Part shown: positions 57,626-60,925 of the stretch, piece after piece
Position numbering within the stretch: the stretch's first letter is position 1
Layout of the letters: each line of letters starts with the position of its first letter
Origin: Bradymonas sediminis
GTDB lineage: Bacteria; Myxococcota_A; Bradymonadia; Bradymonadales; Bradymonadaceae
NCBI RefSeq assembly: GCF_003258315.1
Contig: NZ_CP030032.1
Span: 2,829,804-2,893,803, forward strand
Direction of reading: 5' to 3'
DNA length: 64,000 nt
The notes under the pieces: generated by a model
Database searches by the model: none
Told to the model about the DNA's origin: nothing
The model's input: only the letters and a program-made list of their open reading frames with translations
Translations under genes and position numbers: made by a program

Positions 57626-58810
57626 ATGGAAGACCTTCAGGGAGGCACCCTCGCGCTTGAGCATCGATACGATATCCTCGATCTTTGCGATCGTCGCGGA
57701 CTGATCAGCGCCTACCACGGTAGCCAGGACCCCTTTAGCCGCCCGGTTTGGGTCAAGGTTTATGACGGATTGGGGGCCGCAGACGTCGAGATTTCGGCGG
57801 TCGACCCGCTGGTGGACCGCCTCAAGGAGAGCGCGCGGCTGATCAGCGATCTTCAGGAGCCGGGGATCTTGCGGATCATCGACTATGGGGAGCTCGAGGA
57901 GCGCGTGCCCTTCGTCATTTCGGAGCGAAGCCCCCACCCCACCCTCGACGACCTGTTGGACGCCGAGGGGACCTTCTCGGTCGACAAGGTCTGCGATCTG
58001 ATCGGACAGATCGCCAAGATCCTCGCCCCGGTGCATCGCCAGCGACGCGCGCACGGGGCGCTGTCCCCGCAGTGGATCTACATGGCCCAATCGGCGGGCG
58101 ACGCGCTCGCCGTTGACACGATGAGCATCGGCCACTTCCAGATGGAGTTCACCCCCGCCGAGCGCCTCGATTTGGCGATGGCGAGCTTTGGCTCTGAAGA
58201 TATCGCGGTGTTTGCGCCCGAGTTCTTCCCCCAAGACGACGCGGCAGCGAGCGACGACGCCCAGGTAGAAGATGCCTACCGCATCAAAGACGACCTTGGC
58301 CCGGGCACCACGAGTCCTGCCGGCGACGTGTGGGCGCTCGGGGTGCTGGCCTACACCGCCCTGGTCGGCGTGCACCCGTTCCTCGACCCGGGCCAGCCCC
58401 TCGACGAGGCGATCGACCGGATTCAGAGCGCCGCGCCGCGCCCGCTGTCCCAGCTGGGGATCGACGCCAAGATCAGCGACGTGATCCTGCGCGCGCTCTC
58501 GAAGGATCCTCGCGCGCGCTTCCCGCACGCGACCGCCCTGGCCGACGCCCTCTTCGCCGCCAATGGACGGCCAAAGACGGGCGCGGTGGCACCGGAGCGC
58601 GCTGCGCTCGCCCCAACCCCTGCAGCGCCGCCGGCAGCCGCCGAAGAGATTGCGCCCCGGGCCAAGCCGCCGAGCCGCCCGAACGCCGCAGCCCAGAACG
58701 CAGAACTCCTGGAGCGTGAACCCGGCCCCTCCGATCGCCTCCTGAGCGTGGCGCTGTTTTTCTTGCTTATCAGTAACCTGGCCTGGCTATTTTACGTTGT
58801 CATTAAATAA
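57626..58810 (+). CDS. Membrane-anchored protein pseudokinase
   Basis: 394 residues. A kinase-like N-terminal lobe keeps the VAIK-like lysine (RPVWVKVYDG), but the catalytic loop is HGALSPQW at 143-150 instead of HRDLKPxN: Asp, Lys and Asn are all replaced. The DFG region is also unrecognisable (near DTMSIGHF). The C-lobe is well kept (DVWALGVLAYTALVGVHPFL, ILRALSKDPRARFPHATALA). A Pro/Ala linker follows, and one C-terminal transmembrane helix (LSVALFFLLISNLAWLFYVV). It is probably a scaffold or regulator that binds partners rather than phosphorylating them. A hairpin follows at 58837. Confidence 0.87.
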   Translation: MEDLQGGTLALEHRYDILDLCDRRGLISAYHGSQDPFSRPVWVKVYDGLGAADVEISAVDPLVDRLKESARLISDLQEPGILRIIDYGELEERVPFVISERSPHPTLDDLLDAEGTFSVDKVCDLIGQIAKILAPVHRQRRAHGALSPQWIYMAQSAGDALAVDTMSIGHFQMEFTPAERLDLAMASFGSEDIAVFAPEFFPQDDAAASDDAQVEDAYRIKDDLGPGTTSPAGDVWALGVLAYTALVGVHPFLDPGQPLDEAIDRIQSAAPRPLSQLGIDAKISDVILRALSKDPRARFPHATALADALFAANGRPKTGAVAPERAALAPTPAAPPAAAEEIAPRAKPPSRPNAAAQNAELLEREPGPSDRLLSVALFFLLISNLAWLFYVVIK

Positions 58811-59334
58811 TTACACTTTTTTCGCAATAATCCCCGATGGCGTTTCGGCCCGATAAATGGGGCCGAAACGCCATTCTTGAAAGCTCGCGCAACGTGAAAA
58901 ATTAACTTTTAGCCATAAATCTGGGCTTTTGCAGAATAAACCGCGGCGACGCCGCGTTGTAATATTCGAACCGGCCAAGCTGCCCTGACAGGCGGAGGGA
59001 ATGGAACCAAGAAGCCAGTGAATCCTGATTTGAAAATAATCGGATTTAGTTTTGACCAGGCACTTGATTTCGGAGTAAGAGGCCCTAAGATTGTCCCTGC
59101 TAGAGAGAAAACGGCAGCGTTAGGGTCTCAAGAGTGCTGATAAGTTTAAGTTCCTTGCATTTATCAGCTGCACGCAACTAGTTTTTGACTCAATCGAAAG
59201 AAAGTTGAATACAATAGTTGCATCGCTCAACGGTTCATGATAAGGCTTATAGCCATAAGATGTGGTTCCGTTAGAGAGTACCTGAAGCCACGTTCTTTTT
59301 TAATTTCCTAATTTTCAGGATTTTTACAGTACGG
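58811..59334. other. AT-richer gene-free region before the small RNA
   Basis: About 450 bp after the pseudokinase terminator show no coding frame and lower GC than the flanks. I see an 8-bp inverted repeat (GCTGATAA at 59136-59143 with TTATCAGC at 59161-59168) and a weak promoter-like pair TTGATT-16-TAAGAT (59064-59091). No function is assigned; it could hold a second transcript. Confidence 0.4.
58837..58874 (+). terminator. Hairpin after the pseudokinase gene
   Basis: A perfect 15-bp stem (ATGGCGTTTCGGCCC with GGGCCGAAACGCCAT) with an 8-base loop, 26 bp after the stop. There is only TTCTT after it rather than a long T run. Confidence 0.65.
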
Positions 59335-59363
59335 TTGACAAATTACAGTAACGGTGGAATAAC
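59335..59363 (+). promoter_or_regulatory. Promoter of the small RNA with overlapping direct repeat
   Basis: TTGACA (consensus -35) and AATAAC with a 17-bp spacer. A direct repeat TTACAGT-ACGGT (59324-59335) and TTACAGTAACGGT (59343-59355), 19 bp apart, flanks and overlaps the -35 region; it may be a regulator site. Transcription is expected near 59370. Confidence 0.6.
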
Positions 59364-59369
59364 TAGGCT

Positions 59370-59568
59370 GTAATGAGCGTTGAACAAATAGAGCATCTAG
59401 CCCCTGCGGGTTTTCGTGTGCGAGGTAGGTTGCATCATTTCAAGACTCTTTCCACAACTCACTCCATCTTTTCTTCGAAGTATCCTCCTTAAAATCCTCT
59501 GACTTACCTTGCACACGAAAGTCCACAGGGACAAAAGACCGGCGCCCCCCGCGCCGGTCTTTTTTTGT
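59370..59568 (+). ncRNA. Candidate novel small RNA, ~200 nt, with anti-Shine-Dalgarno arm
   Basis: The transcript would start near 59370 and end at the terminator at 59533-59567. Its body is an 18-bp helix: TTTCGTGTGCGAGGTAGG (59412-59429) pairs with CTTACCTTGCACACGAAA (59503-59520), with two G-T wobbles. Inside, TTTCAAGA (59438-59445) can pair with TCTTCGAAG (59472-59480). The remaining unpaired arm is pyrimidine-rich and contains CCTCCTT at 59484-59490, which is complementary to Shine-Dalgarno sequences, plus further CTCC/TCCT steps. A 5' hairpin GGCT...AGCC (near 59366-59400) is possible. It does not show the hallmarks of 6S, tmRNA, SRP RNA or RNase P RNA. No protein of 60 residues or more on either strand explains this conservation-like structure. 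Function unproven; it could regulate translation by base pairing. Confidence 0.6.
59533..59567 (+). terminator. Intrinsic terminator of the small RNA
   Basis: AAAAGACCGGCGC pairs perfectly with GCGCCGGTCTTTT (13 bp, loop CCCCC), followed by T residues to 59566. Confidence 0.9.
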
Positions 59569-59663
59569 CCGCAATTTGTCGGGCCGCACCTATATCCCAT
59601 CGATCGCGGCGAAGCCCTCCCCCGCCTGCCTGCAAAATCCATGACCCGGCGCGAATCGACGAC

Positions 59664-59694
59664 AAAAAAGACCGACACTTTTCGTGCCGGTCTT
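59664..59694 (-). terminator. Intrinsic terminator of the aspartate kinase operon
   Basis: On the minus strand AAGACCGGCAC pairs with GTGTCGGTCTT (one mismatch) and is followed by a T run. It is 32 bp after the aspartate kinase stop. Its sequence resembles the small RNA terminator (AAAGACCGG). Confidence 0.8.
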
Positions 59695-59725
59695 GTGGTG
59701 CCATCTGATTATGCGACCTGGCGTA

Positions 59726-60925
59726 TCAATCCACCTGAATAAAGATGGCGTGAAGCGCGTTGGCGCCCTTGGAGACGACCTCTTCGTCGACGACCCAGGA
59801 GAGGCGCGACAGACTCAGGTTCGTCGCCAGGGGGGCGATATCGGCGGCGTGCAGGGCCTTTTGCCCGGCGCACATCCACCGGGCCTGGGCGCCGATGCCG
59901 CTGCCGACGACGCTGACCAGACCGGCGCTGCGCGACTGCACGTCCGGGCCGAGCGTGGCGAGTTCCTTTTCCAGGGCGTCGCCATCATGGAGGTTTTCGG
60001 TGCCGAGGTAGACCTCGCAGCTCTTCCCGGGCGCCCAGGTGCAGACGATGCACTCACGCTCGGCGAGCAGCTCGATGACCCGGTCCGCCGACTCACCGGC
60101 CCGCACCCACAGGCCGCGGTTCAGGTGCGAGACCGCCACGGCCGGCTGGCCGCGCTCGGCGCGCGCGCGCTTGGCTTCGAAATCTCCCACCCGAACAACC
60201 GTACCGACCGACTCCGGCGAGTCGGTCTTTCGCGCGTAGAGCGCGATCTTGGAGAGCATCGCAAATTTGACCGCCTGCTCATTGAGCACCTTCGCCCCGG
60301 AGCGGGCCATCTCGATCATCTCTTCGTGGTCGAGCTCAATGAGTTGGCGCGCCGAAAACACGACGCGTGGGTCGGCGCTATAGACGCCGTCGACGTCGCT
60401 ATAGATTTCGCAGGCCTCGGCCCCGAGCGCCGCCGCCAGCGCCACCGCCGTCGTGTCGCTGCCGCCTCGCCCGAGGGTCGTGACCTCGCGGCGATAGCTG
60501 CTGCCCTGGTACCCGGCGACGATCACGATTCGCCCACGCGCGAGCTCATCTTGGACCCGGAAGGGACGCACATCCATAATCCGCGCGTTCGAATGCGTGT
60601 CGGTGGTGATGATGCCGCATTGCGACCCGGTCAGACTCACGGCCTCGTGGCCGCGCTCCTGGATCGCGATCGACAGAAGCGCCATCGAGATACGCTCCCC
60701 CACCGACAGCAACATATCGAGTTCACGGCGCGATGGATTGGCCGCCAACTCGCGGGCCATATCCAACAATTCATCCGTGGAATCTCCCATCGCCGACACC
60801 ACGACCACGACGTCGTGGCCGGCGTTTCGGGTGCGCACGACCTTGTCGGCCACCGCGCGCACGCGCTCGAGATCACTAAGCGAAGAACCCCCAAATTTCT
60901 GTACGAGTATGCTCACGATATCCAT
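59726..60925 (-). CDS. lysC: Aspartate kinase
   Basis: 399 residues from the ATG at 60925; the frame open to 61093 lies inside the upstream gene and is not used. Landmarks are the N-terminal [20 protein letters not shown] (Lys in KFGGSS binds ATP), [35 protein letters not shown] and [17 protein letters not shown]. Two C-terminal ACT-like domains ([20 protein letters not shown] and VSVVGSGIG) suggest feedback control by amino acids. It makes aspartyl phosphate for the Lys, Met and Thr pathways and for diaminopimelate. Its start overlaps the upstream zinc-ribbon gene by 13 bases, so the two are co-transcribed and end at 59664. Confidence 0.94.

Follow-up and report, generated by a model that had tools for sequence, protein, structure and literature searches.

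The stretch of Bradymonas sediminis DNA analysed here (64,000 nt, hereafter the window) contains a real, new and conserved small RNA gene, whose RNA carries an unusual six-fold loop. The RNA is predicted to be a stand-alone molecule of about 200 nt. The leading explanation, to which we give a little less than even credence, is that this sRNA binds and sequesters Rho. The original prediction of a small RNA outside the known families is borne out by a conserved promoter, a covarying stem of 28 pairs, a terminator and, with a covariance model, occurrence in 20 of the 21 genomes of the family. The anatomy that it gave for the locus was also right overall, except that the helix had been given too short and the -10 element is imperfect.

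The gene occupies a gene-free gap of 0.9 kb, as had been claimed, which holds the promoter, the long hairpin and an intrinsic terminator, and is bordered by a kinase-like ORF on one side and a convergent aspartokinase gene on the other (Table 1). No tRNA or tmRNA was found in the window. The proposed consensus promoter is exact in its TTGACA, whereas the accompanying -10 element departs from consensus; since AATAAC lacks a T at position 6, the promoter was not listed by the consensus promoter scanner. Judging from the promoter position, transcription probably starts near 59370. The second of the two TTACAG boxes is kept in the aligned relatives (alignment of 11 loci), and the exact box arrangement of the sRNA promoter occurs once in the whole genome; these boxes are possible regulator sites. 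A related promoter element, TACAG-N7-TGGAT, is present in the candidate from genome G023, described below. Most relatives (L010-L018) carry a second conserved element, TTACAG-N5-TTGACA...CTGTAATTT, which precedes the sRNA promoter by about 90-100 bases. This element, absent from the B. sediminis window, could be a second promoter or a regulator site.

The strong intrinsic terminator that had been described is indeed present, and a GC-rich hairpin with a T-rich tail follows the stem in most relatives. The terminator scanner missed it, probably because its stem can extend into the T run. Compared with its reverse complement, the hairpin of this terminator matches at 84% over 31 bases, and the terminator of the aspartokinase gene on the opposite strand resembles it.

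Table 1. Features of the sRNA locus and its surroundings, in window coordinates
Feature	Position	Strand	Basis or remark
Kinase-like ORF	57626-58810	+	One border of the gap
Gene-free gap	58811-59725		0.9 kb
Inverted repeat TGGCGTTTCGGCCC...GGGCCGAAACGCCA	58837-58873		Strong; 3' of the kinase-like ORF and likely its terminator
TTACAG boxes (two)	59324-59329 and 59343-59348 (span 59324-59348)	+	Flank and overlap the -35 region
-35 element TTGACA	59335-59340	+	Sequence; TTGAYA in most aligned relatives
-10 element AATAAC	59358-59363	+	17-nt spacer; conserved TGGAATAA context in alignment
RNA 5' leader, unconserved	59370-59402	+	Alignment shows no sequence conservation
Stem 5' arm	59403-59430	+	RNAalifold, 28 pairs, and covariation; AGGUAGGU near-invariant in the family
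Loop, C-rich and G-poor	59431-59501	+	71 nt; six motifs at a 12-nt step; register, spacing control, anchor-free phase analysis
Six loop motifs	59435 TCATTT, 59447 TCTTTC, 59459 TCACTC, 59471 TTCTTC, 59483 TCCTCC, 59496 CCTCTG	+	
CCTCCTT, proposed anti-Shine-Dalgarno (anti-SD) motif	59484-59490	+	Unpaired in predicted fold; coincides with the fifth repeat
Stem 3' arm	59502-59529	+	RNAalifold, 28 pairs, and covariation
Intrinsic terminator GACCGGCGC-CCCCC-GCGCCGGTC-TTTTTTT	59537-59566	+	Read from sequence; fold
Aspartokinase terminator	59663-59694	-	Resembles the sRNA terminator
Aspartokinase gene, convergent	stop near 59726	-	Other border of the gap

The helix of 18 bp proposed originally is real but longer, comprising 28 consensus pairs. 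The region folds at -77.6 kcal/mol (z = -6.07), and none of 200 shuffles was as stable. Among 21 copies, 95.7% of the stem cells are paired and 19 of the 28 pairs show changes on both sides, thus providing the compensatory changes expected of a genuine stem, though the 21-copy alignment was fitted to the model structure and these covariation counts therefore lean toward it. None of 500 shuffles reached any of five covariation measures, pairing dropped to 34-47% when the structure was slid as a control, and 10 pairs with compensatory changes were already apparent in an independent MAFFT alignment of 11 sequences. The stem cells also contain 58 G·U against 9 A·C on the plus strand, indicating that the plus strand is the RNA, in agreement with the strand of the promoter and of the terminator T-run. 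In the closer relatives, the segment 59420-59435 (AGGUAGGUUGCAUC), which spans part of the 5' arm and the start of the loop, is conserved far beyond the needs of pairing.

Searches with all families of Rfam 15 gave no match reaching the gathering score; the nearest models, Leu_leader and ar14, score about 25-26 bits, well below cut-off (24.9 bits against 58.8 for ar14). A DNA search revealed homologues in 11 other genomes from this family of predatory bacteria. A pattern search among named genomes matched Lujinxingia vulgaris TMQ2, a Lujinxingiaceae MAG and MAGs labelled Myxococcales, suggesting that the sRNA group belongs to Bradymonadales. In most members the RNA lies between the kinase-like gene and the aspartokinase gene. 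In two of them (L039 and L043) it is inverted between these same neighbours, which argues for an independent gene rather than a UTR. Two genomes of one genus carry tandem pairs (L041 and L047 in G003, L040 and L048 in G015), with the copies 146-164 nt apart and no obvious terminator between them.

Beyond the family, a candidate was found in one genome of a sister family (G023, E = 6e-8), with another stem sequence and a similar loop, and a weaker one in another family of the class (G027, E = 0.0016). Both, G027 less clearly, keep the stem, the loop length and the array on stems that differ in sequence, and both were found with a model that includes the loop. A second weak match in G027 (L074, G027:C54) was rejected as a coding repeat, which illustrates that low-scoring matches can be false: its lipoprotein-like ORF encodes SEQP/SGQP repeats, and the underlying DNA mimics the 12-nt array. 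Weak matches in G010 (at 312106) and G294 were inspected and left out of the counts.

What the family conserves here is a C-rich, G-poor loop of about 72 nt in which six UCCUUCC-like motifs recur every 12 nt, in a phase fixed relative to the start of the loop. Loops range from 66 to 77 nt, with 32-46% C and 5-14% G, and each motif (consensus UCCUUCC; array pattern YCYNCC) is followed by an A-rich spacer. Six in-register sites can be placed in nearly every member. The autocorrelation of CC gives z values of 4.6 at lag 4, 7.2 at lag 12 and 4.1 at lag 24, and the chain score for YC-NN-YC sites is maximal at a spacing of 12 (z = 15.8); these z values treat related sequences as independent and are thus overstated. 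When nine loops of 71-72 nt were read modulo 12 without any anchor, the repeat U-C-C-U-U-C-C-A-A-R-A-W emerged, and the variance of C by phase was 0.073, a value that in 2000 shuffles never exceeded 0.011. The periodicity holds in divergent members taken alone (p = 0.001 for L038, L042, L043 and G023; p = 0.008 for G027). The B. sediminis loop is among the more degenerate, with p = 0.29 by chain score and 0.044 by CC lag, and tops the three C-rich, G-poor clusters of 72 nt in the window by 12-nt C periodicity. Loops are mostly unpaired (mean 0.55-0.85), besides mini-hairpins: in many of them a small hairpin can arise around motif 4, with folding better than that of shuffles (mean z of -2.1). 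Spacing shifts by single bases between members, so that the loop has no conserved reading frame that could encode a small protein.

No partner bearing several complementary sites was found in the genome, where GGWAGG pairs number 6, against 7 for the reversed control pattern. Likewise, 101 stretches of viral contigs were scanned, and those inspected lay in open frames or were clamped differently; one contig (L103, IMGVR_UViG_3300048929_000261) has repeated ATTCCTTCCG units beside a terminator-like hairpin, unlike the clamp of the sRNA.

A mostly open loop that is rich in C, poor in G and furnished with a motif every 12 nt, six in all, suggests a partner that binds six-fold. Rho, which binds RNA as a hexamer through six primary sites, is encoded once in the genome (one Rho_RNA_bind match). 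All 18 of the primary-site residues checked, core and extended, equal those of E. coli; the E. coli row of this comparison agrees with the solved-structure alignment. By the present numbering, positions 102 and 105 are R and K in both Rho proteins, whereas the text of PMC11018626 prints K102 and R105. The primary site of each Rho subunit combines a core pocket for a dinucleotide with an extended part, and a cryo-EM reconstruction agrees with an occupancy of six nucleotides per site, of which the last two on the 3' side lie in the core pocket (PMC11018626); this fits a motif of six to seven letters ending in CC. According to a published predictor, rut sites span 78 nt, contain more C than G and have cytosines spaced by 11-13 nt (PMC6407284). 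The loops contain more C than G over a length close to 70-80 nt, and their spacing peak at 12, with the phase lock, places a C every 11-13 nt.

The loop would thus be a complete, hairpin-clamped copy of a rut site, offering one motif to each primary site of the Rho hexamer. As the primary sites would use up the loop, and a stable stem directly followed by an intrinsic terminator closes it, Rho would be held with no RNA on which to translocate. Making the sRNA would lower free Rho and so relieve Rho-dependent termination, and the sRNA itself would be regulated through the TTACAG boxes. We infer the binding of Rho, its stoichiometry and sequestration as the outcome. Slightly more guardedly still, the RNA could be a natural Rho antagonist, a hairpin-clamped six-fold rut mimic of the size of one hexamer, kept family-wide, while two neighbouring families each offer a weaker candidate.

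Several features do not sit easily with Rho. The CCUWCC motif is more specific than the YC dimers that Rho is usually said to bind, the mini-hairpin at motif 4 and the folding of the loops contrast with the unstructured state expected of rut sites, and resemblance to rut is weakly specific, since Rho binds many C-rich RNAs. The B. sediminis loop is degenerate, and the near-invariant AGGUAGGU finds no explanation from Rho. Because Rho accounts for neither the preference for CCUWCC nor the mini-hairpin nor this near-invariant segment, titration of another protein is a serious rival, and indeed the main one, although we regard it as rather unlikely. The sRNA would then titrate or scaffold another pyrimidine-binding protein (KH, cold-shock, S1-type or unknown) through six CCUWCC sites, in the mode of CsrB/RsmZ for CsrA but with a different motif. 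This would account for a repeated degenerate motif at loop and mini-hairpin positions, for its specificity beyond YC and for the display of UUCC by the mini-hairpins, and the tandem gene copies in two genomes are also consistent with it. However, an unspecified protein explains neither the fixed count of six nor the strict 12-nt step, and no candidate protein was identified. CsrA itself is found in the genome, and on the minus strand the mini-hairpins, reverse-complemented, would present AGGA loops, so an opposite-strand RNA sequestering CsrA through GGA motifs in loops and linkers was considered. It was rejected on the G·U and A·C counts in the stem, and we give it hardly any weight: promoter and terminator T-run are on the plus strand, some members (L043) have mostly GGU rather than GGA on the minus strand, and the transcribed strand carries UCC/CC motifs in place of repeated GGA, with GGA at most near motif 4.

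Blocking of the ribosome binding sites of many mRNAs by C/U-rich loop motifs, as in the alphaR14/cuckoo RNAs, was the function originally proposed, and we consider it improbable. The B. sediminis loop does contain CCTCCTT in its unpaired, pyrimidine-rich arm, as had been pointed out, the loop is C-rich and accessible, and in alphaR14 sRNAs anti-SD motifs are displayed by stems whose sequence varies (PMC10746234). Yet a k-mer test showed that CCTCCTT is not conserved across the family. In 21 non-redundant loops, the anti-SD words fall slightly below the expectation from shuffles (CCTCC, 8 against 12.8; CTCCT, 4 against 8.2), whereas CCTTCC (26 against 4.8) and CCTACC (17 against 1.4) are enriched about 5-fold and 12-fold, respectively. 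At family level, an anti-SD arm as the conserved function thus fails. Base 4 of the motif is usually U or A and not C, single loops mix different motifs, and pairing needs no strict 12-nt phase. By these counts, the selected feature of the loop is the six-fold, 12-nt-periodic YCYNCC array and not a complement of AAGGAGG. A divergent 6S RNA missed by Rfam would agree with the length of about 200 nt, the long hairpin and the failure of the Rfam 6S model to find anything in the genome. It is very improbable: a central bubble between two stems, with its apical stem, is missing, and a continuous 28-pair stem encloses an open repeat loop of about 72 nt. Less probable still is a drifting 12-nt minisatellite within a terminator-like hairpin, its loop being devoid of function. 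Near-identical tandem units do occur in some members (L038), but the motif phase is kept across divergent genera although the spacers change, and the stem covaries.

A natural RNA that sequesters Rho was not found in the open-access papers searched, which offer protein inhibitors of Rho and sRNAs that pair to block rut sites. If Rho is bound, the sRNA would be, as far as these open-access searches show, the first natural RNA of this kind and would join Rof, YihE and Psu, which are protein inhibitors. The array would, moreover, spell out in natural form the binding preference of one Rho hexamer, namely six motifs of six letters each that repeat every 12 nt. Should another protein be the partner, the architecture remains unusual for an sRNA, with six motifs in fixed phase inside a clamped loop.

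Compared with known systems, the sRNA resembles alphaR14/cuckoo (alphaproteobacteria, Rfam ar14) in its unpaired pyrimidine-rich motifs on stems of variable sequence, in being trans-encoded and in its intrinsic terminator. The alphaR14 sRNAs, which are the closest anti-SD RNAs found in the literature, however, repeat an exact CCUCCUCCC anti-SD across all three of their hairpins (PMC10746234), whereas here six periodic motifs share one loop in which anti-SD words are not enriched, and the ar14 model places the sRNA below its cut-off. CsrB/RsmZ similarly carry many copies of a short protein-binding motif per small RNA, sometimes from tandem genes, but they display GGA on many hairpins, whereas the array presents CCUWCC with a strict 12-nt period in one clamped loop. 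With Rof, YihE and Psu, the sRNA would share the outcome of lowering Rho activity by direct action, these being proteins and the proposed inhibitor an RNA. Finally, like rut sites, the array is C-rich and G-poor over 70-80 nt, with a C every 11-13 nt by the published criteria (PMC6407284). Rut sites lie in nascent mRNAs with downstream RNA on which to translocate, whereas the array is predicted to lie in an RNA of its own, where a long stem clamps it and an intrinsic terminator comes next.
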